From a virus: a stretch of DNA of 64,000 nucleotides. The notes under the pieces are model-generated. The model ran no database searches, was not told the origin of the DNA, and worked only from the letters and a program-made list of their open reading frames with translations. Positions 45,059 through 63,807 of the stretch are shown here, piece by piece. Position 1 is the stretch's first letter. Each line of letters begins with the position of its first letter. The stretch spans positions 54,418 to 118,417 of IMG/VR virus record IMGVR_UViG_3300021963_007890; one strand, written 5' to 3'. Made by a program: the position numbers and the translations under genes.

Positions 45059-45222
45059 CTCATTCCTAATGCTAGAATAACAGCAACAACTAATATAAAA
45101 AATACAATAAACCCTGACCTGTCCTTGTGACCACCATGGACAGGATCTATGTCTTTAAAGTCAGGCCTAGTTGTATTTTTCTTTTGTGCTGCTATCAGCG
45201 TCTGAAGTAGAACTGGTTTCAT
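45055..45222 (-). CDS. 55-aa single-TM protein overlapping terC end
   Basis: This frame runs from an ATG inside the terC 3' end. It reads TTRPDFKDIDPVHGGHKDRS and then a hydrophobic helix ILVVAVILALG. Conserved-looking composition and convergent packing support a real gene, but the start is uncertain. Confidence 0.4.
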   Translation of the reverse strand: MKPVLLQTLIAAQKKNTTRPDFKDIDPVHGGHKDRSGFIVFFILVVAVILALGMS

Positions 45223-45895
45223 TTTTTGATTTCCTTATGCGTGTTCTATAATATTGTTTAAAAGTCAATACAACTGCTAAAACCCACGGTAGTCCCATTT
45301 CGGACCAATCATGAAGTGGATCTATATACTTATCGACAAATGGCTCTGCTACAATCATCTTAAAGGCCACAGCATATAAAACAAATGCGCCTATAAAGAT
45401 TGTGTCAGGATGACGTTCCATAATACGTGCTACTATTGTGCTACCAAACAAGATAATAGGAACACTGACAAGAAGTCCAAATATAATTAAAATCCAATTA
45501 CCACCAGCAGCACCAGCAATGGCTAGAGCATTATCTAGGCCCATTACAGCATCTGCTAGAACAATAGTTGCCATAGCACCCCAAAATGTATCCGAAGCCT
45601 TAACATCGCTGTGATCATCATTTCCTGTTGTAAGACGCCAGGCGATCCATATAAGCATAAGACCTCCTACAAACCTAAGACCGGGAATCATCAACAAATA
45701 TGTTAGTGCTGCCACACAGGCGAACCTCACTGCCACAGCACCAAATGTTCCCCATATCATGGCTCGCTTTCTTAAATTTTCAGGCAACTTATTAGCGGCC
45801 ATAGCAATAACTAAGGCGTTCTCACCGCCTAATACTACATCAATTAAAATGATAGCCAATAAGGCCCATAAGAATTCAAATGTTAAGATTTCCAT
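45167..45895 (-). CDS. TerC-family integral membrane protein
   Basis: This 242-residue protein has about seven TM helices. It carries the TerC/Alx signatures DVVLGGENALVIAMAA (Glu/Asn in TM1) and DAVMGLDNALAIAGAAGGNW. Members export manganese or secure metal supply to exported enzymes. The acidic/Ser tail is species-specific. It is transcribed opposite to the plcP-agt operon. Confidence 0.85.
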   Translation of the reverse strand: MEILTFEFLWALLAIILIDVVLGGENALVIAMAANKLPENLRKRAMIWGTFGAVAVRFACVAALTYLLMIPGLRFVGGLMLIWIAWRLTTGNDDHSDVKASDTFWGAMATIVLADAVMGLDNALAIAGAAGGNWILIIFGLLVSVPIILFGSTIVARIMERHPDTIFIGAFVLYAVAFKMIVAEPFVDKYIDPLHDWSEMGLPWVLAVVLTFKQYYRTRIRKSKNETSSTSDADSSTKEKYN

Positions 45896-46345: not shown

Positions 46346-48400
46346 ATGAGAAAGATAATTTTAAACCCTTGGTGGGCTCTACTCACCCTTATAGCAGTTA
46401 TAGCATTAAGATTTTTTGATCCTAGTTTTGTAGAGTCAGTTAGATTACGCTACTTTGATCAGCTTATAACTAGTCAACCTCAAGTTGATGTTCCGGTTCA
46501 CACAGTGAACATTGATGAGGCTACTCTAGAGAAAATGGGTCAATGGCCATTCCCTAGAGGTGACTATGCTAAAATGATTGACGAATTGTATAAAAGAAAT
46601 GCAGGCTTAGTGGTATTCAATGTATTAATGCCTGAGCAAGATCGTTTTAAAGAAGATAAGGAACTAGCACAATATCTTAAAACGCACCCTGTAGTTCTTC
46701 CAGTATTAGGACATACAAAAGAACGTAATGCCACACAACCGCCCAATACTCAAGTTGTAGGACAGGATCCTCAGGGCAAAGTGGTAGAGTATCCAGGTGT
46801 TATCAGTTCGGTGGCCACAATAACAGGTCAAGCCGCAGGATACGGTGTTGTTAACACCTTTCCTGAAATAGACGGGGTAGTTCGTCGTATGCCTCTTGTT
46901 ATAGCTAGTCAAGGTAAATTACATCCGGCTCTGGCGCTAGAAACACTGCGAGTAGCAGCACAGGATCCTAAGGTGCAAGTAAAAATTGGTGATATTGGTG
47001 TAGAAGCACTTCGTGTTCCTAAAATAGGAAAGATACCAACCGATCCCTTAAGTCGTATTTGGATTGATTGGGCAGCAACTCCTAAAGAACATAGTTATAC
47101 AAAATTACCAGATAATTTTAATGGTGAGATAGTAATAGTGGGACTGTCCGCAGCAGGTTTAGCTAATCCTGTAGCAACTGCCAATGGGGAAGTTTGGCCT
47201 CACTATTTACAAGGAGCCGTTTTTGGAACTTTGGCAACACAAAGCCACATACAGAGACCAGATTGGGCAGATGCCGCTGAACTAGGTGCTATTGCTGTAT
47301 TTGGCATTGTTTTAATATTTTTATCAAGGTGGGTCTATGTCGGTATCGGATTTTATCTTATTCTTGCTGGTTCATGCGTGGCAGGCAGTATATACGGGTA
47401 TAGTAATTATAGGTGGCTTATTGATGCAACTCTTCCTACCCTTAGTATTCTTCTTGTAGCACTACACGCCTATACGGTGAAGTTTATTTCAGAATTTCTA
47501 CAGAAACAGCAAATACGCAAACAGTTCCAAAGTTATCTATCACCAGATCTTGTGGCTAAACTGATCAAAGATCCTAGCTTACTTAAACTAGGCGGTGAAG
47601 AAAAAGAACTCAGTATCATGTTCACAGATGTAAGAGGATTTACCAGCATCAGCGAACATTATGGCAAAGATGTTCAAGGTCTTACTAAGATAATGAATCG
47701 TTATATGACTGCCATGACACGAAAGATACTGGAAAACCACGGCACATTGGACAAGTATATAGGTGATGCTCAAATGGCATTTTGGAACGCTCCTTTAGAT
47801 GAAACTATTCATTGTAAGGAAAGTGTTAAAGCAGCATTAGAAATGTTAGAGGATTTAAAGGTATTCAATGATGAAATCACAAAAGAAGGAATACCAGCGT
47901 TTGGCATGGGCATTGGTATTAATACCGGTGTTGTTGTGGTTGGTAATATGGGTAGTGAACAGCGTTTTGATTATACTTGTCTTGGTGATGCGGTAAATCT
48001 AGCAAGTAGGTTAGAAGGACAGAGTAAGAACTATGGTGTTTTACTAGTTATTGGTCCTGTAACAGAAAGCAGATTAGAAGGCACAGCATTTAGTCTACCT
48101 TTAGATTGTATAGCGGTCAAGGGCAAACATGAAGGCGTAAACATTTTTACAGCATTTAAAAATCCTCCATCGTTAGAAATGTCAACATGGCAAAACGATA
48201 AACAGCGTCACGAAGCCATGCTTGACTTATACCGTAGACAAGAATGGACTAAAGCCCTTAAAGCAGTTGAATCATTAAAAGGCTGCTTTGGAGGACAGAT
48301 GGACAACTACTACGATCATTGGGTAGATCGTATCCACGAAATGGCCAAGATGAATTTACCTAAAGACTGGGATGCCACTTACAGAGCCACCTCGAAGTAA
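46346..48400 (+). CDS. Class III adenylate/guanylate cyclase with CHASE2 sensor
   Basis: This 684-residue protein has an N-terminal TM helix, an extracytoplasmic CHASE2 domain (about 45-310; VNIDEATLEKMGQWPFPRGD), two or three TM helices (about 312-372) and a cyclase domain (about 415-600). Cyclase motifs are MFTDVRGFTSISE (first metal Asp), KYIGDAQMAFWNAP (Lys and second metal Asp) and GDAVNLASRLEG (Asn and Arg). All catalytic residues appear present. It would make cAMP (Lys/Asp-type pocket) in response to an envelope signal. Confidence 0.9.
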   Translation: MRKIILNPWWALLTLIAVIALRFFDPSFVESVRLRYFDQLITSQPQVDVPVHTVNIDEATLEKMGQWPFPRGDYAKMIDELYKRNAGLVVFNVLMPEQDRFKEDKELAQYLKTHPVVLPVLGHTKERNATQPPNTQVVGQDPQGKVVEYPGVISSVATITGQAAGYGVVNTFPEIDGVVRRMPLVIASQGKLHPALALETLRVAAQDPKVQVKIGDIGVEALRVPKIGKIPTDPLSRIWIDWAATPKEHSYTKLPDNFNGEIVIVGLSAAGLANPVATANGEVWPHYLQGAVFGTLATQSHIQRPDWADAAELGAIAVFGIVLIFLSRWVYVGIGFYLILAGSCVAGSIYGYSNYRWLIDATLPTLSILLVALHAYTVKFISEFLQKQQIRKQFQSYLSPDLVAKLIKDPSLLKLGGEEKELSIMFTDVRGFTSISEHYGKDVQGLTKIMNRYMTAMTRKILENHGTLDKYIGDAQMAFWNAPLDETIHCKESVKAALEMLEDLKVFNDEITKEGIPAFGMGIGINTGVVVVGNMGSEQRFDYTCLGDAVNLASRLEGQSKNYGVLLVIGPVTESRLEGTAFSLPLDCIAVKGKHEGVNIFTAFKNPPSLEMSTWQNDKQRHEAMLDLYRRQEWTKALKAVESLKGCFGGQMDNYYDHWVDRIHEMAKMNLPKDWDATYRATSK

Positions 48401-49271: not shown

Positions 49272-50501
49272 ATGGACAAAAAATTAACCACCATACTGTG
49301 TAGTGATGTTATAGGATACAGTCGTATGATGGGAGAGAATGAACATCTAACTCTCCAAAAATTAGATCAATGTAGACAAATCATTGATCCCAGTATAGCA
49401 AAATACAATGGCCGTATTTTTAACACAGCAGGCGATGCTGTGTTAGCAGAGTTTGCCAGTCCCACTGATGCTGTAAAATGTGCTGTAGATATTCAAAACT
49501 CAATTAACAAACTTGATACGGACATGCGTTGGCGTATTGGACTACATCTCGGTGAAGTCTATACCTACGGTGATAATCTCATGGGCGACACTGTAAACAT
49601 TGCAGCCCGTATAGAAAGCACTGCTGATCTAGGTGGAGTTTGTTTTAGCAGTCAGGTCTTTGACGCAATCAGTGGTAAGGTTACTATGGACATAGAATGG
49701 CGTGGACCACAGTCATTTAAGAATATCAAAGATCCTATCAAAATCTATGCTATAAAGATAGCAGGTGCCCAGAAAAATCCTAATGTAGTTCATAAAGAAA
49801 CTGTAAAATATAGTAAAGAACAATTGATTAAGAGTGTGATCAATGACAAACCTGCCATAGGAAAAACTTTACACGATGCTCAAAATCTTAAACGTGATCG
49901 TCAGTTTGGTCCAGCTGTTCGTGTATTAATGTGGCGTATTACAAAAAAGTGCGGACCAAGCCTAAATGAACTGTTAGATATGAGCCAAAAAGAATTAGTG
50001 CCTGTGGAATTAAGACATGTTGTAGTAGCTATACTCAGTGAATATTGTAAAGGTGTAGACAGTGATCGTGCTATGACTATATATCGACTACTACAAGGAC
50101 CGTTAGGCGTTCATCGTAGTCTTGGATTACAATTTTTAAAACAGGCCGCAAAGACCAATCTCGAAGCTCAGATGGAATATAGTTCTACAATTATGGAAGA
50201 TCCACATAGTAGCCAAAATGAAATCACGGATGCTGTAGAACAGTTGGTCACTATGGCTCGTAGAAAAAGTCAGCCTGCTATGTTGAAGTTATGTGACTAC
50301 TATAATAAGGTGGGTGAAAAACATCAACAGTTTTTATGGTTGTGGGTATTGAGGGGACTGTTTGAACCTTCAGCACAAAACAAACTTCAACTGTTAATGA
50401 ACACAATTAACAAAACTGATTTTACTAATTGGAAAATAGAAGGAGAGTCGCTCTTAGATGAGATTAAATTTAAGAACGATCCTGGTAATTATGGTTATTA
50501 A
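49272..50501 (+). CDS. Class III nucleotidyl cyclase, soluble
   Basis: This 409-residue protein begins with a cyclase domain (about 5-165). It has ILCSDVIGYSRMM (metal Asp), FNTAGDAVLAEFASP (second metal Asp) and GDTVNIAARIES (Asn, Arg). The remaining 240 residues are helical and may be TPR/Sel1-like (helical pairs near 270-370). It lacks a membrane sensor, unlike the CHASE2 cyclase upstream. The base product is not certain. Confidence 0.88.
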   Translation: MDKKLTTILCSDVIGYSRMMGENEHLTLQKLDQCRQIIDPSIAKYNGRIFNTAGDAVLAEFASPTDAVKCAVDIQNSINKLDTDMRWRIGLHLGEVYTYGDNLMGDTVNIAARIESTADLGGVCFSSQVFDAISGKVTMDIEWRGPQSFKNIKDPIKIYAIKIAGAQKNPNVVHKETVKYSKEQLIKSVINDKPAIGKTLHDAQNLKRDRQFGPAVRVLMWRITKKCGPSLNELLDMSQKELVPVELRHVVVAILSEYCKGVDSDRAMTIYRLLQGPLGVHRSLGLQFLKQAAKTNLEAQMEYSSTIMEDPHSSQNEITDAVEQLVTMARRKSQPAMLKLCDYYNKVGEKHQQFLWLWVLRGLFEPSAQNKLQLLMNTINKTDFTNWKIEGESLLDEIKFKNDPGNYGY

Positions 50502-51195
50502 TTTCAGCCAATCTTAGAAATTCAAATAACTTGAGATAACAATAACCAATATCTATTTCAAACCACTTACGGGATAGTTTGACACTTGCGGGATCAAGAT
50601 GGTGGTTGTTGTGCAACTCTTCTCCACCAATAACAATACCCCAAGGACAAATGTTCCTACTATTATCTTCTGTATTCCCATTTCTATATCCTAACCAATG
50701 TCCAACACCATTAATGACACCAGCAGCCCAGAACGGTATCCATAATACCTGTATAAGCCAAATAACAATGCCCCACCAGCTAAAAAACAATATGTTAAAA
50801 CTAAGTAAAAAAATAATTCCATGATAATGGCAGGGAGTATATAAGTTACGCTCTATCCAATCAGAGGGCGCATCGGGAGCGTAGGCCTTGATACCAATCC
50901 CTCTCTTAAGAGCAAGACAATAATATCTAACGCCACGTAAGAGAATATTGTAGTTGCCAAAAACAACAGGACTATGCGGATCGCCAGGCCGATCGCTGTA
51001 TCTATGATGCGCACGGTGAACTGCCATCCACTGCTTTGTAACCATACCAGTAGTCAGCCACAACCAAAACCTCATAAAGTGACTTAATAAAGGGTGAAAC
51101 TTGATACCACGATGTGCCATGCCTCTGTGTAGATATAGCGTTACACAAATTATAGTTATGTGAGTGGCTATCAGTGTCCATATTACCATCCACAT
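50470..51195 (-). CDS. Acyl-lipid/acyl-CoA delta-9-type fatty acid desaturase
   Basis: This 241-residue membrane enzyme has all three histidine boxes: HITIICVTLYLHRGMAHRG (H-x4-H region), HRAHHRY (H-x2-H-H) and HNNHH (H-x2-H-H). Four TM segments are visible. It introduces a double bond into fatty acids, increasing membrane fluidity. Its ATG overlaps the upstream stop (TAATG) in a seven-gene minus operon. It ends within 32 bases of the opposite cyclase end. Confidence 0.9.
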   Translation of the reverse strand: MWMVIWTLIATHITIICVTLYLHRGMAHRGIKFHPLLSHFMRFWLWLTTGMVTKQWMAVHRAHHRYSDRPGDPHSPVVFGNYNILLRGVRYYCLALKRGIGIKAYAPDAPSDWIERNLYTPCHYHGIIFLLSFNILFFSWWGIVIWLIQVLWIPFWAAGVINGVGHWLGYRNGNTEDNSRNICPWGIVIGGEELHNNHHLDPASVKLSRKWFEIDIGYCYLKLFEFLRLAEINNHNYQDRS

Positions 51196-52596: not shown

Positions 52597-53331
52597 TTAT
52601 TCTAACCACCAGCATGGACTTTCTGGAAAAACCTGACATACATAATCCGCATTACGAGGAACACCTGGGGCACAATTTGGATCAGCTACTCTAGCCATAC
52701 CTGGAGCGAATTCACCCCAGCGATCGCCGTAGAAGTCTTTGACAATATTAGTGTATGGGACATAAAATTCAGGAAACTTTCCTTTATAGACAGTGTTATA
52801 ATCTTCATTAAGGTTATTCCAATTGATAAAATCTTGAACATTAGAACCTGCTATGATTTGAATATTATTCTCAGGGAAGTTATGTCTTGGACACCAAAAT
52901 GTCGTCCAACCTTGATCTAAATTATTAACATAATCTTGTATACGATGAGATATTAGAAACGCATCTGATTCGATGTGTATAATTTTTTCAAAGCCATACT
53001 TCTCTGCCAATTTAGCAGCAAACATAAAACTACGGTGCCAACCTGGACTATCAATAGGCGGATCATCTGGTTTCATCGGAGGGCGATGTCCAAGGTTTTT
53101 ATTGAAGTGAAAAATTACTCCTCTACTATCTGGACATGACTCAGGTAGGTCCTCGGCGTCAACAACTTCGACTCCTTCCCATTGTGGTAGAACTGTGCTA
53201 CCGTCATCTATCATAAAAATTTGATCATATTCTAAATTGCTGTTTTCAAGAGCATTTATCCAACGAGCGAATAAACCGGACCACCTTTCTTGATTAGTGG
53301 ACCACGATGTGCAAAATACAAAAGTTTTCAT
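52597..53331 (-). CDS. GT-A-type glycosyltransferase
   Basis: This 244-residue protein begins MKTFVFCTSWSTNQERW. It has a DQIFMIDDGS motif (about 37-46) and KIIHIESDAFLIS (an E-S-D variant of the D-x-D nucleotide-sugar site, about 118-130), plus a C-terminal CQVFPESPCWWLE. It heads the minus operon and lies divergent from the sugar operon. Acceptor and sugar are unknown. Confidence 0.65.
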   Translation of the reverse strand: MKTFVFCTSWSTNQERWSGLFARWINALENSNLEYDQIFMIDDGSTVLPQWEGVEVVDAEDLPESCPDSRGVIFHFNKNLGHRPPMKPDDPPIDSPGWHRSFMFAAKLAEKYGFEKIIHIESDAFLISHRIQDYVNNLDQGWTTFWCPRHNFPENNIQIIAGSNVQDFINWNNLNEDYNTVYKGKFPEFYVPYTNIVKDFYGDRWGEFAPGMARVADPNCAPGVPRNADYVCQVFPESPCWWLE

Positions 53332-53416: not shown

Positions 53417-54217
53417 ATGGAGAAAAGACTCAGCTTCTGTCATCCAGGTACATTTGGTGACACCCTTTATGGCATGTGTGCTGTAAAATTACTAGGGGGT
53501 GGAGATGTTTACATAAAGCTAAATGGCATGAACGAAGTAGCCTATAAGGCTTTTGGCATGCCTGACGCAGGTGTACATGCTGGCAGATATACACAAAAAG
53601 ATTTAGATTTTTTGTTTCCCTTATTAGAGCATCAAAGTTATATTCATAAATTAGATGTATGGAGAAACGAAACTGTTGATTTTGATCTAGGAAATCATTA
53701 TAAATTTACCACAGGGCCAAATGGATGGCAAGGTAATCAAACTGAATGTTATGCTCTAGTTTGCGGACTTGATCTTACAATATATAGAAAACAGTTAAAC
53801 ATTGATCCGTGGTTGGATCCGGTAGAGCCAAAAAAAATTCCAGGACGATCTGTTGTAATTAATCGTACAGGAAGATATCTACAGGGCAGTGACCCAAAAC
53901 CAGAAATGTGGACTAAATGGATCAACGAAGGATTAGAAGATGTTTCTATATTCATAGGTACAGAACAGGAATGTGACACATTTAATAAATTGTTTGGATG
54001 TAATGTACCATATCGCCCTGTTAAAGATATGTTAGAAATGGCACAGTATGTTCAAGGTGCCGAACTGGTTATTGCTAATCAAAGTCCCGTAATGGCAGTG
54101 GCTATTGGATTAGGTAAAACATTCTGGAGTGAAACTAGAAAAGATTGGAATGCTTTTAAAAGCCCTCACGGTTGGGGTGATGTTTGGTTCCCTAGAGTTA
54201 ATGGGAATTATTTCTAA
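53417..54217 (+). CDS. Heptosyltransferase (GT9)-like glycosyltransferase
   Basis: This 266-residue protein begins CHPGTFGDTLYGMCAVKLLG and later has VVINRTGRYLQG and VQGAELVIANQSPVMAVAIGLGK. This recalls the GT9 pattern of D-x-L for nucleotide-sugar binding and a conserved S-P-x-A-ALG site. It probably adds a sugar to a surface glycan. It opens the operon and is followed by rfbC with a one-base overlap. Confidence 0.65.
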   Translation: MEKRLSFCHPGTFGDTLYGMCAVKLLGGGDVYIKLNGMNEVAYKAFGMPDAGVHAGRYTQKDLDFLFPLLEHQSYIHKLDVWRNETVDFDLGNHYKFTTGPNGWQGNQTECYALVCGLDLTIYRKQLNIDPWLDPVEPKKIPGRSVVINRTGRYLQGSDPKPEMWTKWINEGLEDVSIFIGTEQECDTFNKLFGCNVPYRPVKDMLEMAQYVQGAELVIANQSPVMAVAIGLGKTFWSETRKDWNAFKSPHGWGDVWFPRVNGNYF

Positions 54218-54765
54218 TGCTAGCCACTGTTGAATTAAATCTTAAGCCAGCTAGATTAATTACACTAAAGTCTCATATAGATGACCGAGGTTGGTTTACA
54301 GAGACTTATAGAAAGTCTTGGTATGAATCTTTAGAAAATACAGAGTTCATATTCGAATTCAATACACTCAGCAAAATTCAAAAAACACTGCGAGGTCTAC
54401 ACTGTCAAAATGATTTAATGTCACAGTCTAAACTGGTGACAGTTTTACAGGGTAGAATTTTTGATGTCATAGTAGATGCCAGATTAAACAGTCCTACCTA
54501 CGGACAGTATCAGACTTTTATACTAAGTGACAATTTAATACAAACATTATATGTGCCAAAAGGATTCTATCATGGATTCCTCACGTTAGAAACTAATACG
54601 TTAGTTAACTACAAGTTAGATAACTATCATCTTGAAGAAGCCGAAACTGGTTTAATGTATAATGATTCTACTCTAAATATACCATGGCCTTGTGATCCGT
54701 TAGTAATAAGCAAAAGGGATCAAAATCATCCCTCTTGGGGAAATTGTTTCAAATTTAAGGAATAG
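54217..54765 (+). CDS. rfbC: dTDP-4-dehydrorhamnose 3,5-epimerase-like
   Basis: This 182-residue cupin has FTETYRKSWY, KTLRGLHCQND (catalytic His) and YVPKGFYHGFLTL, as in RfbC/RmlC. It epimerises C3/C5 of a nucleotide 4-keto-6-deoxyhexose. The substrate could be the product of the 4,6-dehydratase gene at 61665. The length fits the family. Confidence 0.88.
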   Translation: MLATVELNLKPARLITLKSHIDDRGWFTETYRKSWYESLENTEFIFEFNTLSKIQKTLRGLHCQNDLMSQSKLVTVLQGRIFDVIVDARLNSPTYGQYQTFILSDNLIQTLYVPKGFYHGFLTLETNTLVNYKLDNYHLEEAETGLMYNDSTLNIPWPCDPLVISKRDQNHPSWGNCFKFKE

Positions 54766-54766
54766 T

Positions 54767-55423
54767 ATGAAAATAGCAATGTGTCAAGCCTGGGACAAAA
54801 ATTATGAACCATTGGCGCAAATTACATGGTATCAGAACAAAAAACTCTATTGCGATCATTGGCAGTATCCATATCATTTAAAAACTGATGGCTTCAAATA
54901 TCAAGTCAGCTACGAAAAAATTAAATTGATGTTAGATACTATGAATGAGCATCCTGAGTACGACTGGCTTTATTGGGCAGGAACTGATACGCTAATCACT
55001 AACATGTATATTAAATTAGAAAGTTTTGTTGACGAAAATTATCACATTGTTATGGCCAAGGATATCAATAATATCAATGCTGATAGCTTTATGATAAAAA
55101 ATAGTCAAGAAAGCAAAGATTTTCTAGCCTATATATGGTCCTTAGTAGATACTTACAATAGTCATCATTGGTGGGAACAGCAGGCAATGATAGACAATAT
55201 GGATAAGTTTGAACATTTATTTAAATTTGTTCCTCAAAAAACATTCAATAGTTTTTTATACAAGGAACTATATTGGAATATCTACAGAAGTTCGATTGAC
55301 AAAACAGGACATGATGGTCAATGGGAACCTGGTGATTTTCTGTTACATGTCCCAGGAACAGGATTACCTAAGGTAGAAATAATGAGTAAATTTTTAGGCT
55401 TAGTCAGACACATAGTAGCCTAA
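54767..55423 (+). CDS. GT34-like (GMA12/MNN10-type) glycosyltransferase
   Basis: This 218-residue protein has YDWLYWAGTDTLITN (D-x-x-x-T region acting as the D-x-D site), HWWEQQAMID and WEPGDFLLHVPG, hallmarks of the GMA12/MNN10 family. It is a paralogue of the gene at 59350 (about a third of residues visibly shared). It probably adds hexose to a glycan. Confidence 0.75.
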   Translation: MKIAMCQAWDKNYEPLAQITWYQNKKLYCDHWQYPYHLKTDGFKYQVSYEKIKLMLDTMNEHPEYDWLYWAGTDTLITNMYIKLESFVDENYHIVMAKDINNINADSFMIKNSQESKDFLAYIWSLVDTYNSHHWWEQQAMIDNMDKFEHLFKFVPQKTFNSFLYKELYWNIYRSSIDKTGHDGQWEPGDFLLHVPGTGLPKVEIMSKFLGLVRHIVA

Positions 55424-55436
55424 TGGAAAAAAAAAT

Positions 55437-56756
55437 ATGAAAGAAATTTTAGATCTAGTTAAAAATTTTATAGAAAACAAACAGGCAAATAAATCTTGGA
55501 CTCCAGGAAAAGATTTTGTTAACTATGCAGGTCCTTACTATTCAAGTGCCGAATATGTGGCAGGAGTAGAAAGTCTACTTGGTGGTTGGCTTGTCATGGG
55601 CGATAAAAGTCTCAAATTTGAAAGAAAGTTTCACGACTACTTTGGAAAGCCCCATGGCGTGTTAACGAACTCGGGTAGTAGTGCTAACCTATTAATGGCA
55701 GCTAGTTTGACCAGTAAAAGAGGTCATGCTTTCCCCAAGGGTACTAAAGTATTAACACCTATCGCAGGTTTTCCTGTAACACTAAACCCCACTATTCAAA
55801 TGGGCTTCCAGCCTATCTTTGTAGATATTGAATTAGATACTCTAAACTTAGATTTGGATCAATGTGAAAAAAGACTTAAAGAACATCCAGATATTAAAGT
55901 GATTACTTTTGCTCATGTATTAGGCAATCCCCCTAATATGGATCAGCTGATGGATCTAGTCCAAAAATATAATCTAGTGCTACTCGAAGATTGTTGTGAT
56001 GCTCTAGGTTCAACCTACGATGGAAGATTACTAGGCAGCTATGGTGAAATGGCGTCTTGTAGTTTTTATCCCGCACATCATATGACCATGGGAGAAGGTG
56101 GTTATGTTGCCTGTAATACATATGATCAAGAAGTCATTTTAAGATCATTTAGAGAATGGGGACGTGGATGTTACTGTGTAGGACCAGAGGCTAATAAATT
56201 ACAGTGTGGAACCTGCGGTAAGAGATTTAGTGATTGGGTTCCATGTATGCCCGGTGAAATTTTTGATCATAAATATGTATATGATGAAATTGGATTTAAC
56301 CTCAAACCTATAGAAATTCAAGCAGCGATGGGACTACATCAACTTGATAAGTTAGATGAAATACACGAATTAAGAAAGCGTAATTATAGGTTGATGTTTA
56401 ATATATACGAAAAGTATGAGGAGTTTTTCCATCTTCCTAGACCGCGTGCCAAGAGCAGTCCTAGTTGGTTTGCTTTTCCTTTGACAATTAGAAAAGGATC
56501 TCCTTTTACAAGACATGATATAGTAGATCATTTAGAAACTAATCTTATCCAAACTCGTCCGTATTTTGCTGGAAATCTAATGCTACAACCTGCTTATAGC
56601 CACCTAATGGATCCAATGGTAGCTAAAAACGATTTTCCAACTGCTACTTATGTTATGAGTAATACATTTTTCCATGGAACAAGTCCAGTTATTACACCTG
56701 AACAAATCGATTATATTGGAGAAACTGTGGATGGATTTATGAGTTTATTTGTATAA
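55437..56756 (+). CDS. rfbH: RfbH-type CDP-6-deoxyhexose 3-dehydrase (PMP/[2Fe-2S])
   Basis: This 439-residue protein belongs to the DegT/AHBA family but has CSFYPAHHMTMGEGG, with His in place of the PLP Lys, as in the E1 enzyme RfbH/AscC. The [2Fe-2S] cysteines are seen in CYCVGPEAN and CGTCGKRFSDWVPC. It removes the C3 hydroxyl of CDP-4-keto-6-deoxyglucose to give a 3,6-dideoxy sugar. The usual E3 reductase is not in this window and may be host-supplied. It is followed by a TPP enzyme. Confidence 0.85.
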   Translation: MKEILDLVKNFIENKQANKSWTPGKDFVNYAGPYYSSAEYVAGVESLLGGWLVMGDKSLKFERKFHDYFGKPHGVLTNSGSSANLLMAASLTSKRGHAFPKGTKVLTPIAGFPVTLNPTIQMGFQPIFVDIELDTLNLDLDQCEKRLKEHPDIKVITFAHVLGNPPNMDQLMDLVQKYNLVLLEDCCDALGSTYDGRLLGSYGEMASCSFYPAHHMTMGEGGYVACNTYDQEVILRSFREWGRGCYCVGPEANKLQCGTCGKRFSDWVPCMPGEIFDHKYVYDEIGFNLKPIEIQAAMGLHQLDKLDEIHELRKRNYRLMFNIYEKYEEFFHLPRPRAKSSPSWFAFPLTIRKGSPFTRHDIVDHLETNLIQTRPYFAGNLMLQPAYSHLMDPMVAKNDFPTATYVMSNTFFHGTSPVITPEQIDYIGETVDGFMSLFV

Positions 56757-56764
56757 GGAAATTT

Positions 56765-58531
56765 ATGAAAGGTTCTCTCTACGTCGCAAAATTTTTAGAA
56801 GCTATAGGTATTCAGCAGGTATACATTGTCCAAGGAGGAGCTTGTGCCTTCATGTTAGACTCTTTAGCAACTTCTACAAAAGTTGGATATGTTTGTTTTC
56901 AACATGAACAAGCAGCAGCTATGGCAGCAGATGCTGTTTGGAGATTGAATAGCAATCTAGGTGTAACATTTTGTACAAGCGGTCCGGGTGCTAGTAATTT
57001 AATCACAGGAATAGCTTGTTCTTATTATGATAGTATACCTAGTCTACACATCACAGGACAGGTCAATGGTAAAGAAGTAGCTCAATATAGAGGAGCTAAA
57101 GTTAGGCAGGCAGGATTCCAACAAATGGATATAGTAAGTATGGTTAAACCTGTAACCAAGTATGCTGTCGCAGTTCATGATGCAGAAGGTCTTAAAAGAG
57201 AATTGAAACGAGCCGTAGAAGAAGCCTATAGCGGTAGAATGGGTCCAGTGCTTGTAGATATTCCTATGGATGTTCAAACTGAAGATGTAGGTGATGAACT
57301 TCTACTGCCCGATATTAATTTGGCAAAAAGGTATTATAATAATATAAACTCTGCTAACTCAGTGGCGGACAAAATAAGTGAGTTTTTCCAAAACAGTCAA
57401 CGACCACTTGTTGTGTTCGGTGCTGGCCCAGGTTTAGCCGATACCCACAAAGAACTTGAAAGTTGGTTAAAATCTACAGGAATACCTTTTGTTGCTAGTT
57501 GGAGCGGTATGACATTCTTCAATCACGATATTCCTAATTATGTAGGTCATTTCGGAGTTTACGGCAATAGAGGTGGTAACTTTGCTATTCAAAACGCAGA
57601 CAAAATTTTAGTGCTAGGTAGTAGACTAGATAACAGACAAAGAAGCGGAAATCCAAAAACTTTTGCTCCATATTCAAAATTACTTGTCTTAGACATAGAC
57701 AAGGAAGAATTATTCAAATATGATCCCGAACAATACAATACTGTAGAATTTGATTTTAGGAATTTGCCAGCAGTGTTAAGTAGTATTAAGTTGAACACAA
57801 TAAGCCAAGATTGGCTATCTCATATTTCCGATCTTAAAAAGAAATATTTTAATAAAGATACTAGCAGTTATTCTAAGAATAATAATACTCTCAGTCCATA
57901 TCTTGTTGTACAAAAATTCAGTGAAATTATGGATAAGGATGCTGTGGTTATTACAGATGCAGGTGCTAATCATTGTTGGATATATCAAATGTTTTATAGA
58001 AATAGAGAACAGTATTTAATGACCAGTTCTGGACATTATTCTATGGGCTATTCTTTACCAGCGGCTATAGGTTCCAAACTTACTATGCCTGCTAGGCAAG
58101 TTCTTAGTTTCAACGGTGATGGTGGAATTCAAATGAATATTCAAGAACTGCAGACTTTGAAAGAATATGATTTAGATGTCAAGGTAATTGTGTTCAACAA
58201 TCATGCTTTGGGTATGATCAAACAATTTCAGGACTCATATATGGAGTCAAGGTATGAAGCCACTTCACAAGGAAAAGGCCCAGGTAATCCTAATTTTAAA
58301 ATGATTGCCTTGGCTTATGACATGGAATATGCTCTTGTGAATAATTTAGATCAAATAACAATTGATCTTCTTAAACCTGGCAGTAGACTAATAGAAATTA
58401 TTATAGATAAAGGCACACTAATTGAACCTAAATTAGAAATGGGTCGGCCTATCAACGATCAATTTCCTTACTTGTCCGATAAAGAATTCAAAGATAGTAA
58501 TAGATATAACGAATTTACAAGGTATAAATGA
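56765..58531 (+). CDS. TPP-dependent acetolactate-synthase-like enzyme, YerE-type candidate
   Basis: This 588-residue protein has the N-terminal pyrimidine-domain Glu (CFQHEQAAAMAADA), a middle FAD-like domain (about 190-330), and the TPP motif FNGDGGIQMN...FNNHALGM (G-D-G-x-N-N). Its homologues include acetolactate synthase and YerE, which attaches an acetyl-derived two-carbon branch to a CDP-3,6-dideoxy-4-keto sugar. Placement directly after RfbH favours the YerE role. Valine/isoleucine synthesis is the alternative. Confidence 0.7.
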   Translation: MKGSLYVAKFLEAIGIQQVYIVQGGACAFMLDSLATSTKVGYVCFQHEQAAAMAADAVWRLNSNLGVTFCTSGPGASNLITGIACSYYDSIPSLHITGQVNGKEVAQYRGAKVRQAGFQQMDIVSMVKPVTKYAVAVHDAEGLKRELKRAVEEAYSGRMGPVLVDIPMDVQTEDVGDELLLPDINLAKRYYNNINSANSVADKISEFFQNSQRPLVVFGAGPGLADTHKELESWLKSTGIPFVASWSGMTFFNHDIPNYVGHFGVYGNRGGNFAIQNADKILVLGSRLDNRQRSGNPKTFAPYSKLLVLDIDKEELFKYDPEQYNTVEFDFRNLPAVLSSIKLNTISQDWLSHISDLKKKYFNKDTSSYSKNNNTLSPYLVVQKFSEIMDKDAVVITDAGANHCWIYQMFYRNREQYLMTSSGHYSMGYSLPAAIGSKLTMPARQVLSFNGDGGIQMNIQELQTLKEYDLDVKVIVFNNHALGMIKQFQDSYMESRYEATSQGKGPGNPNFKMIALAYDMEYALVNNLDQITIDLLKPGSRLIEIIIDKGTLIEPKLEMGRPINDQFPYLSDKEFKDSNRYNEFTRYK

Positions 58532-59343
58532 AAATACTAATCACAGGAGCTGACGGGTTTATAGGTTCCTATCTTAAAAATCGTTTGAAGAATTCTAATC
58601 ATTTAACTTCTCCTAGTAGATCTAACTGTGATTTCGCAAATAAAAATGATGTTGATCATATATTTCGAGATCGGTATTATGATGCAGTAATACATTGTGC
58701 AGTTGAAGGACGATATACACCTATGGCCATAAGCGATAATATTTTGAATACTAATTTGGCTATGTTTAAAAATTTAAGCAGATATAAAGATCGTTTTGGA
58801 AAATTTATCAACATAGGTACAGGTGCTGAATTCGGATTGACGAATAATATTTCCAATGCCAGAGAAGCTGAAATTTTGAATGTCGATCCTAAAGAAAGTT
58901 ATGGTTTAAGTAAAAATTGGATAGCCAGAGAAATATTAGAACTAAACAATTTTTATACATTAAGATTATTTGGTATTTTTGATAGTTCAGAACCAGAAGC
59001 AAGACTATTAAGTGGACTAGACAAAAAAATAAAAAATAAAGAAGTATTTGAATTAAGTAATGACAGGTACTGCGATTATATCAGTGCTGATGATTTCTAT
59101 ATGGTTATCACTACAGTATTAAATGATGAAATAAATTTCAAAGACTTTAATTGTGTTTATAACAGTAAATTTAAATTAAGTGACATTTGTAACCTATATT
59201 GTGATATTAAAAATTATGATAAATCCTTAATTGCTATAAAAAGTCAAACAAATAATCATTATACTGGGAACAGTTTTAGGTTAAACAGTTTAAATTTGCC
59301 ATTAAAAGGCCTAGAAGAATCATTGAAACTTTATAATAGATAG
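58528..59343 (+). CDS. NAD(P)-dependent sugar reductase/epimerase (SDR)
   Basis: This 271-residue extended SDR has GADGFIGSYL (G-x-x-G-x-x-G), NIGTGAEFG and SYGLSKNW (Y-x3-K). It overlaps the TPP enzyme by ATGA. It could reduce the branched keto sugar (YerF-like) or act as an epimerase. It is related to the SDR at 60862. Confidence 0.75.
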   Translation: MKILITGADGFIGSYLKNRLKNSNHLTSPSRSNCDFANKNDVDHIFRDRYYDAVIHCAVEGRYTPMAISDNILNTNLAMFKNLSRYKDRFGKFINIGTGAEFGLTNNISNAREAEILNVDPKESYGLSKNWIAREILELNNFYTLRLFGIFDSSEPEARLLSGLDKKIKNKEVFELSNDRYCDYISADDFYMVITTVLNDEINFKDFNCVYNSKFKLSDICNLYCDIKNYDKSLIAIKSQTNNHYTGNSFRLNSLNLPLKGLEESLKLYNR

Positions 59344-59349
59344 GAAAAT

Positions 59350-60009
59350 ATGATTGCCATTATTTCATCTCATACTAAAGAATATGAGCCTTTAGCAAAG
59401 TATACTTGGACTAATAAGGTAGAATATGCAGAAAAACACAATTACCTCTATCATTGTAAAACAGAAGGTCACGATCCAAATCTAAGATGGCATCACGATA
59501 AACTATATTTTATAAGAGACTGTTTAGAAATTAATCCTGATGTATCGTGGTTTTTATGGGTGGGCTGCGACACATTAATTACAAATTATAATATAAAATT
59601 AGAATCATTGGTAGATGATAATTTTAATATTATCATAGCTACAGACGGAAATGGTATTAATAACGACATTTGTATTTTCAAAAATAGTTCTGATACCCGT
59701 GAGTATTTAGATCATCTTATAGAAATTTTTCCACAATATGCCCATCATCCTTTTTTGGAACAGCAGGCAATGATTGAAAGTTATGAGTATCCTAAATGGC
59801 AAAAACTATATAAGATTGTTCCTCAATACTTGCTTAATTCACACGATTGCTGGCCCAACGAACACCAACCAGATCCTAAATGGACTGACAAGTTCGGTAA
59901 TCGCTCGTGGTGGGAACCTGGAGATTTCATAGTTCATTGGCCGGGCAGTAGTTTACAAACAAGACTGGAAAGAATGATTCCCCACTATATACCTAAGGTA
60001 ATTAAATGA
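59350..60009 (+). CDS. GT34-like glycosyltransferase (paralogue)
   Basis: This 219-residue protein has WFLWVGCDTLITN, HPFLEQQAMIES and WWEPGDFIVHWPG, the same layout as the gene at 54767. A gene duplication probably created two transferases with different acceptors. Confidence 0.75.
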   Translation: MIAIISSHTKEYEPLAKYTWTNKVEYAEKHNYLYHCKTEGHDPNLRWHHDKLYFIRDCLEINPDVSWFLWVGCDTLITNYNIKLESLVDDNFNIIIATDGNGINNDICIFKNSSDTREYLDHLIEIFPQYAHHPFLEQQAMIESYEYPKWQKLYKIVPQYLLNSHDCWPNEHQPDPKWTDKFGNRSWWEPGDFIVHWPGSSLQTRLERMIPHYIPKVIK

Positions 60010-60869
60010 GAAAAATATACGATTGCTTTCCTTTTTTTAATGAATACGATCTATTAGAGTTAAGGTTAGAAGAAGCCTATGACCATGTTGATTATTTTGT
60101 CATATCAGAATCTGATAGATCATTTCAAAACAAACCCAAACCATGGAACCTAGAAAATAACTGGTCCAGGTATGAAAAATATCACGATAAGATCATATAC
60201 TTAAAAATCACTGATATGCCTCATGGTGAAGGTAATCAGGCCAATTGGATTAGAGAAAATTTTCAAAGGGATGTATTAGCAAGAGGTATTGGGGATGCTG
60301 GTCCTAATGATGTAATTGTCATAAGTGATTGTGATGAAATGCTTAGACCTTCCACTTATGATCTTTTAAGATCAGATACAGAGCATTATTTTTGGATGTG
60401 TAGACAGCCAATCTTTTGGACTAGATTTAATTATTGGCAGGCTAATCCTCGTGGCTATAATATCAGCAGTATGGCCATACTGAAAAGTCATCTCATCAAT
60501 CCGCAAGAAATTAGAAATAGAATGAATTGGGCATACACACTACCAGAAAACTTCGATCAAAATGGTATGAGATTTATTCATCATGCCGGATGGCATTTTA
60601 CTTATTTAGGCAATGATGATAATGCTAAAAACAAACTGCTCAATTTTGCTCATGATGAATGTACTCACTTGGCCAGTAGATTAAATATCGATGAAGCGAT
60701 ATCTGCTAACAAGAACCCAATTGATCAGAACGATCCTACTCAATTTTTACCTGTGAAATTGGATGATTATTTCCCTAAGACTGTAGTCAATAATATTGAC
60801 AAATATAAAAATTATATTATACAAGATGTAGATACTGATATACGAGGTCATTTACCAACATATGATTAA
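60006..60869 (+). CDS. GT17-like glycosyltransferase
   Basis: This 287-residue protein begins MRKIYDCFPFFNEYDLLELR, then has YFVISESDRSFQNKPKP and VIVISDCDEMLRPSTYDLL (D-x-D). This matches glycosyltransferase family 17 (beta-1,4-N-acetylglucosaminyltransferase-like). It probably adds GlcNAc to a surface glycan. It overlaps the preceding gene. Confidence 0.8.
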   Translation: MRKIYDCFPFFNEYDLLELRLEEAYDHVDYFVISESDRSFQNKPKPWNLENNWSRYEKYHDKIIYLKITDMPHGEGNQANWIRENFQRDVLARGIGDAGPNDVIVISDCDEMLRPSTYDLLRSDTEHYFWMCRQPIFWTRFNYWQANPRGYNISSMAILKSHLINPQEIRNRMNWAYTLPENFDQNGMRFIHHAGWHFTYLGNDDNAKNKLLNFAHDECTHLASRLNIDEAISANKNPIDQNDPTQFLPVKLDDYFPKTVVNNIDKYKNYIIQDVDTDIRGHLPTYD

Positions 60870-61668
60870 AAATGTTCTAATCACAGGATCGCATGGGTTC
60901 GTAGGTAATAAGATATCTGCTGAGTTAGATAAAAAATTTAATCTAATTAGGCCTACTAAGTATGAGCTAGATCTTTTAGATTTTAAACAAACTGAAGAAT
61001 ACTTTCTGGCCAACAGCATAGATGCGGTGGTTCATTGTGCTTTGACAGGTAGAGAAGTCTTGTTTAGTGTAGATCCAACCTTTCTTTCAGATGGTTTGAT
61101 TATGTTTAGAAACCTATATCATAATAGGGATCGGTATAAATTATTTGTAAATCTAGGGACTGCTTATGAATTAGATTTGACAAAGAGTCATAATCTAGTC
61201 AACGAGGATGAATTTTTAAATCACTTGCCATTGCCTAGTTATGGACTTGCCAAAAACTTAATAGCTAGAACTTGTCGAGAAACAAATAACTTTTATAATC
61301 TTCGTTTATTTGGAGTGTTTCATGAAGATGAAAAAGATTTAAGATTTTTCAAGAGAGTTAAATTAGCAGATCAAGTAGTTATCGAAAACGATCAATATCT
61401 AGATTATATCTATCTTTTAGATATAGTTCCTATGATAGAAAAGATACTTAATTTACAATCTAACCATAAAGACATAAACATGGTATACGAGCAAAAGTAT
61501 AAATTAAGTGAAATGGCATTTATGCTTTGTGATGTACTAGGCGTTGACAAAAATAAAATATCTATTAAAAACCATAATGGTAGAAACCTTACAGGTGATT
61601 GGACTAAATTAAAGAGTTACAATTTAAGCCTTATAGGTTTAGCAAATGGATTTAGGAATTACTTATGA
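60862..61668 (+). CDS. NAD(P)-dependent sugar reductase/epimerase (SDR), paralogue
   Basis: This 268-residue SDR has TGSHGFVGNK, NLGTAYELD and SYGLAKNL (Y-x3-K). It is a clear paralogue of the gene at 58528, with the same gene order after a GT34-like gene and the same N-terminal ALTGREV/AVEGRYT-type position. The sugar substrate is unknown. Confidence 0.72.
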   Translation: MIKNVLITGSHGFVGNKISAELDKKFNLIRPTKYELDLLDFKQTEEYFLANSIDAVVHCALTGREVLFSVDPTFLSDGLIMFRNLYHNRDRYKLFVNLGTAYELDLTKSHNLVNEDEFLNHLPLPSYGLAKNLIARTCRETNNFYNLRLFGVFHEDEKDLRFFKRVKLADQVVIENDQYLDYIYLLDIVPMIEKILNLQSNHKDINMVYEQKYKLSEMAFMLCDVLGVDKNKISIKNHNGRNLTGDWTKLKSYNLSLIGLANGFRNYL

Positions 61669-62603
61669 AAATTGTTTATGTTACTGGCTGCTTGGGATTC
61701 ATTGGATTTCATCTTACTAAAAAATGTCTAGACAGAGGTTGGTATGTGGTAGGTGTTGATAAAGAAACATACGCAGCTAATCTAAATTTTTTGCCTATTT
61801 TAAAAGAGTACAGTAACTTCAAATATATAAAAGAAGATATTAGAAATTTAACTTATCTTTTAGATTGTGATTATGTTATTAATACAGCAGCAGAAAGTCA
61901 TGTCGATAACAGTATTGTTGGCAGCGAAGTTTTCTTAGATACTAACATATACGGAGCTCATAATTTATTAAATTTATTACAAAAGAACAAATTTAAAGTT
62001 CCAACATTTTTACATTTTAGTACCGACGAAGTATACGGTGACATCGTAACAGGATCCCATACTGAAGTTGATTTGCTGAAACCCAGTAACCCTTATAGTG
62101 CTACCAAGGCCAGTGCAGACATGTTGATCAGTGCTTGGGCTAGAACTCATGATATTCCTTGGGTAATTGTACGCCCTACAAACAATTACGGAATTGGTCA
62201 ATATGTAGAAAAGCTGATTCCTAAAAGTGTAAAATATTTGAATATCAATCGTCCTATACCTTTACATCAAAACGGAACTCCTCGCCGTACTTGGCTCCAT
62301 GTTAGTGACACAGTAGAAGCAGTTATAACTATCATTGATAAAGAAGTCACAGGAGAAATCTTTAATATTAGTGGAAACTATGAAGAAAGTAATTTGGAAA
62401 TTGTAAAGCAAATTATCAAACTTACTCGTCATACTGATCATTATGAAGAGTTTATTGATTTCAAATTCAGTCGACCTGGGCAAGATGTTAGATATAGCAT
62501 TGACGATACTAAACTACGAGCGTTAGGTTGGAGTGCCAAAGCGGACTTTAACATTGAGCTAGCTAAAATAGTTCAGTACTATAAACAGAATTTTGTGTGG
62601 TAA
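61665..62603 (+). CDS. Nucleotide-sugar 4,6-dehydratase (RfbB/RfbG-like)
   Basis: This 312-residue extended SDR has TGCLGFIGFHL, STDEVYGD (Thr-Asp-Glu catalytic) and YSATKAS (Y-x3-K), then VRPTNNYG and GTPRRTWLHVSD. These match dTDP/CDP-glucose 4,6-dehydratases. It would supply the 4-keto-6-deoxy sugar used by RfbC and RfbH. It overlaps the upstream stop (ATGA) and ends the operon. Confidence 0.85.
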   Translation: MKIVYVTGCLGFIGFHLTKKCLDRGWYVVGVDKETYAANLNFLPILKEYSNFKYIKEDIRNLTYLLDCDYVINTAAESHVDNSIVGSEVFLDTNIYGAHNLLNLLQKNKFKVPTFLHFSTDEVYGDIVTGSHTEVDLLKPSNPYSATKASADMLISAWARTHDIPWVIVRPTNNYGIGQYVEKLIPKSVKYLNINRPIPLHQNGTPRRTWLHVSDTVEAVITIIDKEVTGEIFNISGNYEESNLEIVKQIIKLTRHTDHYEEFIDFKFSRPGQDVRYSIDDTKLRALGWSAKADFNIELAKIVQYYKQNFVW

Positions 62604-63409: not shown

Positions 63410-63486
63410 GCCGGTTTAGCTCAGTTGGCCAGAGCAGTGCTCTTGTAAAGCAAAGGTCGTCAGTTCGAATCCGACAACCGGCACCA
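63410..63486 (+). tRNA. tRNA-Thr (TGT)
   Basis: GCCGGTT/AACCGGC acceptor, GCTC/GAGC D stem, loop CTTGTAA (anticodon TGT), GTCAG/CCGAC-type T arm with TTCGAAT, and encoded CCA. Confidence 0.93.
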
Positions 63487-63492
63487 AACAAT

Positions 63493-63566
63493 TCCGGGGT
63501 AGTATAATGGCAGTGCGGCGGTCTCCAAAACCGTTAGTGGGGGTTCGATTCCCTCCCTCGGAGCCA
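63493..63566 (+). tRNA. tRNA-Trp (CCA)
   Basis: TCCGGGG/CCTCGGA acceptor, anticodon loop CTCCAAA (CCA), GGGGTTCGATTCC T arm, discriminator G and encoded CCA. Confidence 0.92.
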
Positions 63567-63572
63567 AACATT

Positions 63573-63647
63573 GGGCTGGTAGTGATAATGGTAGCACAGG
63601 GGCTTTGCAAGCCTTTAGTCGGAGTTCGATCCTCCGCCGGTCCACCA
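63573..63647 (+). tRNA. tRNA-Ala (TGC)
   Basis: GGGCTGG/CCGGTCC acceptor, anticodon loop TTTGCAA (TGC), GGAGTTCGATCCTCC T arm and encoded CCA. The acceptor lacks the usual G3-U70 pair at position 3 but contains G-U pairs nearby, so identity rests on the anticodon. Confidence 0.85.
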
Positions 63648-63652
63648 AATAT

Positions 63653-63727
63653 GGTCTCTTCGTCTATCGGTGAGGATAGCGGCTTGTCACGCCGCAGAGA
63701 CGGGTTCGACTCCCGTAGGGACCGCCA
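63653..63727 (+). tRNA. tRNA-Asp (GTC)
   Basis: GGTCTCT/AGGGACC acceptor, GCGGC-TTGTCAC-GCCGC anticodon arm (GTC), CGGGTTCGACTCCCG T arm, discriminator G and encoded CCA. Confidence 0.93.
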
Positions 63728-63733
63728 AACTGT

Positions 63734-63807
63734 TGGGGTATGGTGTAATGGCAACACAGTAGATTTTGATTCCACTGCTCTTGGTTCGATTCCAGGTACC
63801 CCTGCCA
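63734..63807 (+). tRNA. tRNA-Gln (TTG)
   Basis: TGGGGTA/TACCCCT acceptor with a weak first pair (typical of Gln), anticodon loop TTTTGAT (TTG), TTGGTTCGATTCCAG T arm and encoded CCA. Confidence 0.9.

Follow-up and report, generated by a model that had tools for sequence, protein, structure and literature searches.

Known Pathways to Branched Deoxysugars

A small number of antibiotics and glycans of bacterial surfaces are known to contain branched deoxysugars. In the yersiniose pathway, YerE adds activated acetaldehyde derived from pyruvate to CDP-4-keto-3,6-dideoxyglucose (PMC12247030), and a YerE from Pseudomonas protegens (PpYerE), which is 59% identical to the Yersinia enzyme (PMC8541089), has been described together with its solved structure (PMC8541089, PMC12247030). 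On the viral side, RfbH and, separately, 'ilvB' have been entered as auxiliary metabolic genes (PMC10653327, PMC11295528, PMC8226683). No report of a link between the two, or of a branched sugar encoded by a virus, was found in the open-licence literature, which counts as weak evidence.

The window analyzed here, a stretch of 64,000 bases, makes up the 3′ portion of a 118,417-base IMG/VR phage record. The phage nature of this record is sound, as it contains endolysin-like, virion, tail-spike, ribonucleotide reductase and DNA polymerase genes. An earlier note on this DNA had read the succession of an RfbH and a YerE-like enzyme as a candidate pathway to a branched dideoxysugar, and this reading is supported by a phylogenetic tree, an AU test and the rfbFGH-yerE-like-SDR order of bacterial genes. 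With a probability of roughly three in four, the cassette directs the synthesis of a yersiniose-like sugar, a nucleotide-linked 3,6-dideoxyhexose branched at C4, for which the branching enzyme is interchangeable among phages.

Organization of the Cassette

The ten genes of the cassette run head to tail on the plus strand from 53417 to 62603; neighbours are never more than 13 bases apart, and several overlap by a few bases. The first product (53417..54217) is a GT-B-like protein and probable glycosyltransferase, the AlphaFold model of which (pLDDT 83) finds a GT9 structure, 3tov, as its best Foldseek match, a weak one (E 1.6e-5, TM about 0.5). It is followed by an RmlC-like dTDP-4-keto-6-deoxysugar 3,5-epimerase, a possible step of the pathway (54217..54765; Pfam PF00908, 168.5 bits; 152.7 bits against TIGR01221, with a cut-off of 155.75), a GT34-like glycosyltransferase (54767..55423; PF05637, 65 bits), the RfbH/E1-type 3-dehydrase (55437..56756; 439 aa) and the YerE-like ThDP ketone carboligase, the putative C4-branching enzyme (56765..58531; 588 aa). 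Next comes SDR1 (58528..59343), a putative branch-ketone reductase in a YerF-like role, which matches the Epimerase and RmlD Pfam models and retains GxxGxxG and YxxxK in the alignment. The remaining genes encode a second GT34-like glycosyltransferase (59350..60009; PF05637, 61.5 bits), a GT17-like glycosyltransferase (60006..60869; PF04724, 72 bits), SDR2 (60862..61668), which is assigned by Pfam and homologous to SDR1 (38% in the alignment), and an RmlB-type NDP-glucose 4,6-dehydratase (61665..62603).

Pfam and NCBIfam profile matches thus confirm as real the 4,6-dehydratase, the two SDRs and the RfbC that had been claimed for this region. Five transferases had been claimed as well; the two GT34 enzymes and the GT17 enzyme stand by Pfam and the GT9-like enzyme by its weak fold match, but the fifth, encoded on the minus strand at 52597..53331, is a protein without an assigned family, which stays beside the cassette in the sister phages (L031, L033, L053, L078 and L082). 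The T4-type late promoter TATAAATA is not enriched, with 3 occurrences observed versus 8.4 expected, and none lies close to the cassette.

The RfbH-Type 3-Dehydrase

The product of 55437..56756 was recognized early as an E1-type 3-dehydrase, and it scores 440 bits against the RfbH equivalog model NF011936, for which the cut-off is 423. Among solved structures, it matches Yersinia E1 best (3bcx, 343 bits), with ColD reaching half of that score (172 bits). The exchange of the PLP lysine for histidine holds, because His214 of the window protein aligns with His220 of E1 (the 3bb8 entry carries Lys at this E1 position), and the FYPAHH motif occurs in all 101 viral RfbH relatives. The four cysteines attributed to the Fe-S cluster are present (Cys245, Cys247, Cys257 and Cys260), but the third is displaced, as it belongs to a short insert that Yersinia E1 does not have; at this third position, about 5 of the 101 viral relatives have N or R. 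The pairing with the ThDP gene is not due to chance, because RfbH lies directly upstream in all 24 viral YerE-type loci that have upstream sequence, which bears out the gene pair described for the window.

Family Placement of the ThDP Enzyme

The protein encoded at 56765..58531, described as a TPP enzyme of acetolactate-synthase shape, is complete, with all three TPP_enzyme Pfam domains (N, M and C), and has the HEQ glutamate and the NGDG..N ThDP motif. Its named NCBIfam matches are all acetolactate synthase (AHAS) or other ThDP-enzyme models, and it falls well under the cut-offs of all acetolactate synthase models (at best 373 versus 738; 367 versus 538). By sequence, its best solved relatives are 5ahk from P. 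protegens (298 bits), E. coli AHAS I (259 bits) and JanthE (8rph, 251 bits). The structure 5ahk is taken to be PpYerE because it is the P. protegens entry among the PDB matches and the literature describes a solved YerE from this species. The window enzyme and PpYerE have in common an insert that precedes the RQ-GFQ motif and corresponds to a gap of about eight residues in AHAS, as well as a C-terminal P-LE-GR-I--Q motif, which reads EPKLEMGRPINDQ in the former and RPRLEYGRAIDQQ in the latter.

In a maximum likelihood tree of 36 proteins, in which PpYerE stands in for the Yersinia enzyme (YpYerE), the six AHAS are set apart, with support of 100/100, from PpYerE, JanthE, all of the viral decarboxylase-type enzymes and the alphaproteobacterial relatives. 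A place within an IlvB clade had been named beforehand as the refuting outcome of this comparison; the window enzyme is instead found on the YerE-like side (100/100), inside a viral clade (100/98) that adjoins the alphaproteobacterial relatives (100/100). Constraining it to group with AHAS costs 43.5 log units and is rejected by the AU test (p = 0.0017), so that membership in IlvB is ruled out by the tree, the AU test and the model scores together. PpYerE itself, about 33% identical to the window enzyme, has a long branch in the tree, and a sister relationship of the two is not rejected (p = 0.318) but is not the best tree. Homologues of the ThDP enzyme in annotated phages mostly look like bacterial contamination with true AHAS, and two of them were kept solely as references. 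PHROGs gives no function for the family (phrog_11199, unknown).

Structure prediction, which had been proposed as a further check, agrees with this placement in that the AlphaFold model of the enzyme (pLDDT 78) matches JanthE chains first and AHAS after them; the top six Foldseek matches are all JanthE chains, and the highest identity is to 5ahk.

Among 84,980 species genomes, 26 relatives of the window enzyme were found, all of them alphaproteobacterial by title and 49-58% identical, and most have RfbH close by. The one cluster seen in full, in Bradyrhizobium (L110), has the order rfbF-rfbG-rfbH-yerE-like-SDR, in which rfbF, rfbG and rfbH each exceed their own equivalog cut-off; this is the yersiniose arrangement.

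Proposed Pathway and the Nucleotide Carrier

From the identities, family placement and linkage of these genes, we infer the substrates, nucleotide, product, acceptor and biological purpose of the cassette. Synthesis would begin with conversion of an NDP-glucose, most likely dTDP-glucose of the host, to a 4-keto-6-deoxy sugar by the RmlB-type dehydratase. RfbH would then remove the 3-hydroxyl group with the aid of PMP and its Fe-S cluster, electrons being delivered by a host reductase, after which the YerE-like enzyme would decarboxylate a 2-keto acid, probably pyruvate, and join the resulting activated aldehyde to the ketone at C4 to give a tertiary alcohol bearing an acyl branch. The branch ketone would be reduced by SDR1, RmlC and SDR2 may set the stereochemistry, and the GT34, GT17 and GT9-like enzymes would transfer the finished sugar to a glycan on a surface or on the virion.

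The window dehydratase scores 296 bits against the dTDP model (TIGR01181), under the equivalog cut-off of 365, and 61 against the CDP model, whereas the true RfbG of Bradyrhizobium scores 96 and 453, respectively. It has the motif STDEVYG, which most viral dehydratase copies retain in this form or as STDEIYG, and its best PDB matches are all dTDP-glucose 4,6-dehydratases. Because the dehydratase is of the RmlB type and RfbG was found in 0 of 95 phage contigs, a dTDP-linked route is likelier than a CDP-linked one, and the sugar is probably dTDP-linked, unlike that of the known CDP pathway. The earlier note's branched-sugar chemistry is still the probable one, but its CDP-linked substrate is less likely. 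That the same chemistry yields a C4-branched CDP-sugar from CDP-glucose of the host, as in Yersinia, is an unlikely alternative, for which it speaks that the characterized RfbH and YerE work on CDP sugars (PMC12247030) and that the Bradyrhizobium relative employs RfbF and RfbG; beyond the features of the phage dehydratase just described, it is opposed by cyanophage S-H68, which likewise couples RfbH with a dehydratase annotated as dTDP-type.

The lack of a CDP-glucose synthase and of an E3 reductase, noticed earlier in the window, extends to the whole 118-kb record, in which neither an NTP_transferase nor an NAD_binding_1 reductase nor a Fer2 ferredoxin was found; activated glucose and electrons would therefore be derived from the host. 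The lack of E3 is no objection to the pathway, because the Bradyrhizobium cluster also has none.

A Proposed Exchangeable Slot for ThDP Ligases in Phages

Viral relatives of the ThDP enzyme were found at 27 loci, most of which have SDR1 directly downstream. A ThDP carbon-carbon ligase lies near RfbH in 86 of 95 distinct viral contigs holding a close RfbH; these contigs were picked by closeness to the window RfbH and are not independent, so that the figures do not extend to viral RfbH as a whole, of which the full set comprises 415 stretches. Where the flanks are long (4 kb or more upstream of RfbH and 4.5 kb or more downstream), a ligase is present in 52 of 53 contigs and an RmlB-type dehydratase in 50, and a reductase usually accompanies the ligase at viral RfbH loci. 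Over the 95 contigs, the ligase is of the YerE type in 21, a split transketolase in 19, a split decarboxylase in 15, another decarboxylase-type enzyme in 14, an E1-alpha/beta pair in 14 and of the JanthE type in 3, with representatives of each kind confirmed by Pfam. In the sister phages named above, most of the flanking cassette is kept and the slot differs; L031, for example, has an E1-alpha/beta pair there and L078 a split transketolase. Split-decarboxylase loci often contain an aminotransferase, and one JanthE-type locus (L063) also has genes for an acetaldehyde dehydrogenase (DmpF) and a DmpG-like aldolase, enzymes that could supply a keto-acid donor of greater length. The three ThDP superfamilies found in the slot have been implicated in C-branching of keto sugars, and 13 putative branching-type transketolases, all split-gene and none characterized, have been listed (PMC12247030).

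Reciprocal searches show how tightly these ligases are tied to RfbH. Starting from E1-alpha, RfbH is present within reach in 63 of 80 loci and RmlB in 75, and starting from the split transketolase of the L078 type, RfbH is present in just 6 of 31 loci and RmlB in 24; the latter module is not tied to 3-deoxygenation, because so few of its loci have RfbH. The RfbH-free loci inspected (L227, L243, L254, L163 and L183) mostly have their ThDP genes flanked by RmlB and an SDR. On these counts and loci, the constant core consists of RmlB, a ThDP ligase and an SDR, with RfbH, and hence 3-deoxygenation, optional. Related phages have different, partly unrelated ThDP ligases in the branching position and can do without RfbH, and so appear to vary a single sugar through exchanges of its branch. 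In its broadest form, the proposal is that several phage lineages exchange unrelated or distant ThDP ligases in one slot around a constant RmlB-(RfbH)-SDR core, giving differently branched, probably dTDP-linked sugars by a route not present in known bacteria and changing host or virion surfaces; we consider the odds of this to be even.

ThDP genes were not found near the more distant phage RfbHs of Synechococcus phage S-H68, marine virus AG-345-D19 and LR756502. In four other phages (L099, L100, L103 and L104), a small SDR comes after RmlB-RfbH and no ThDP gene lies within the following 2-4 kb, an arrangement that would fit an unbranched 3,6-dideoxyhexose. They lend something to the alternative that the window cassette, too, makes an unbranched sugar of the abequose or paratose type and uses its ThDP enzyme for another purpose; these are, however, precisely the phages without a ThDP gene, which elsewhere is coupled to RfbH or RmlB and to an SDR1-type SDR, and this alternative is improbable.

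Acceptor of the Sugar

The likeliest acceptor of the branched sugar, judged from gene content, would be host LPS or a virion protein. No ORF with more than five predicted membrane segments was seen, so that export of an O-antigen is not obviously encoded by the phage. This lack of lipid-linked glycan export, and the fact that DNA glycosylation occurs in other phages, would suit attachment of the sugar to phage DNA instead, to which we give a slim chance: the record has no homologue of thymidylate synthase or dCMP hydroxymethylase, and glycosyltransferases of the GT9, GT17 and GT34 types are more familiar from the glycans of surfaces or proteins. The glycosyltransferases of pelagimyophages have been read as surface modifiers that counter coinfection (PMC7029224). 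If phages make branched sugars and swap the branching enzymes, they would have a route for redecorating surfaces, for example against superinfection.

That the ThDP enzyme is instead an acetolactate synthase boosting branched-chain amino acids during infection, with RfbH adjacent by accident, is highly improbable in spite of its AHAS-like fold, its 30-32% identity to IlvB and IlvG, its named model matches and the entry of similar viral genes as ilvB (PMC8226683), given a score half that of the AHAS model cut-off, the AU test, the constant position directly behind RfbH, the lack of ilvN, ilvC and ilvD beside the gene, and the presence of a true IlvI (52% to E. coli) in addition to the YerE-like enzyme in both of the two bacteria that were checked.

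If the branched-sugar reading is true, some viral genes assigned to amino acid metabolism as 'acetolactate synthase' or to central carbon metabolism as 'transketolase' encode sugar-branching enzymes, and many new candidate ketone-accepting ThDP enzymes are on offer, including small split transketolases and E1 pairs.

Comparison with Known Systems

The cassette resembles the yersiniose A pathway of Yersinia pseudotuberculosis in having an RfbH-type 3-dehydrase directly before a YerE-like ThDP enzyme, together with a reductase. It differs in lying in a phage genome, in the replacement of RfbG by an RmlB-type enzyme and in having neither a cytidylyltransferase nor E3, and its ThDP enzyme is only distantly related to Yersinia YerE. 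Bradyrhizobium L110 and the other alphaproteobacteria hold the closest cellular relatives of this enzyme, mostly adjoining RfbH and with the EPKLEMGRPINDQ tail, but the Bradyrhizobium cluster is chromosomal and includes a CDP-type dehydratase and a cytidylyltransferase. With JanthE of Janthinobacterium and PpYerE, which are characterized ketone carboligases, the window enzyme shares the fold, the insert and the side of the tree opposite AHAS, although the two are about 28-33% identical to it and JanthE has CDG in place of NGDG. The RfbH cassette of Synechococcus phage S-H68 is likewise phage-borne and combines RmlB, RmlC and RfbH with glycosyltransferases, but has no ThDP branching enzyme nearby. 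Finally, the split transketolases and alpha-keto acid dehydrogenase 2 of branched sugars in actinomycetes are two-gene ThDP ligases beside deoxysugar genes, an arrangement now seen in phages, in which, unlike in the actinomycete systems, the slot that they occupy is interchangeable with a YerE-like enzyme.

Other genes in the window

Proteins resembling, by eye, the fatty acid desaturase encoded on the minus strand at window 50470-51195 (PF00487) occur in several related phages. Two class III nucleotide cyclases are encoded nearby, the first (46346-48400) with a CHASE2 sensor domain and the second at 49272-50501. Several related phages, namely the sister phages L078 and L082 as well as L040 and L044, carry lookalikes of the CHASE2 cyclase, again judged by eye, close to their cassettes. 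On the minus strand at 45167-45895 is a phrog_7180 membrane protein (PHROGs) that appears TerC-like by eye. The window also carries a phage-borne DnaK chaperone (21952-23844), with identity of up to about 68% to records that are annotated as, or are likely to be, bacterial DnaK, and a tight row of five tRNA genes, for Thr, Trp, Ala, Asp and Gln (63410-63807).

Possible Fe-S supply, split transketolases and a putative donor module

Outside the window, inspection by eye suggested an IscU-like Fe-S scaffold (G000:18330-18713, minus strand) and, at about 4-15 kb of G000, several successive proteins of radical-SAM-like or SPASM-like appearance. The 3-dehydrase RfbH could also draw on such an Fe-S supply.

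Split transketolases occur without RfbH in phages L163, L168, L170, L173, L183 and others, where they mostly adjoin genes for RmlB, an SDR, a methyltransferase-like protein and GT34. Phage split transketolases are a wider family than the RfbH-associated set.

In the phage locus L063 (11325-15060), a JanthE-type enzyme is followed by an acetaldehyde dehydrogenase and a DmpG-like aldolase, which apparently form a module that makes the donor of a longer branch. The CDG motif of JanthE, the characterised YerE-like ketone carboligase of Janthinobacterium, is present in this phage enzyme.
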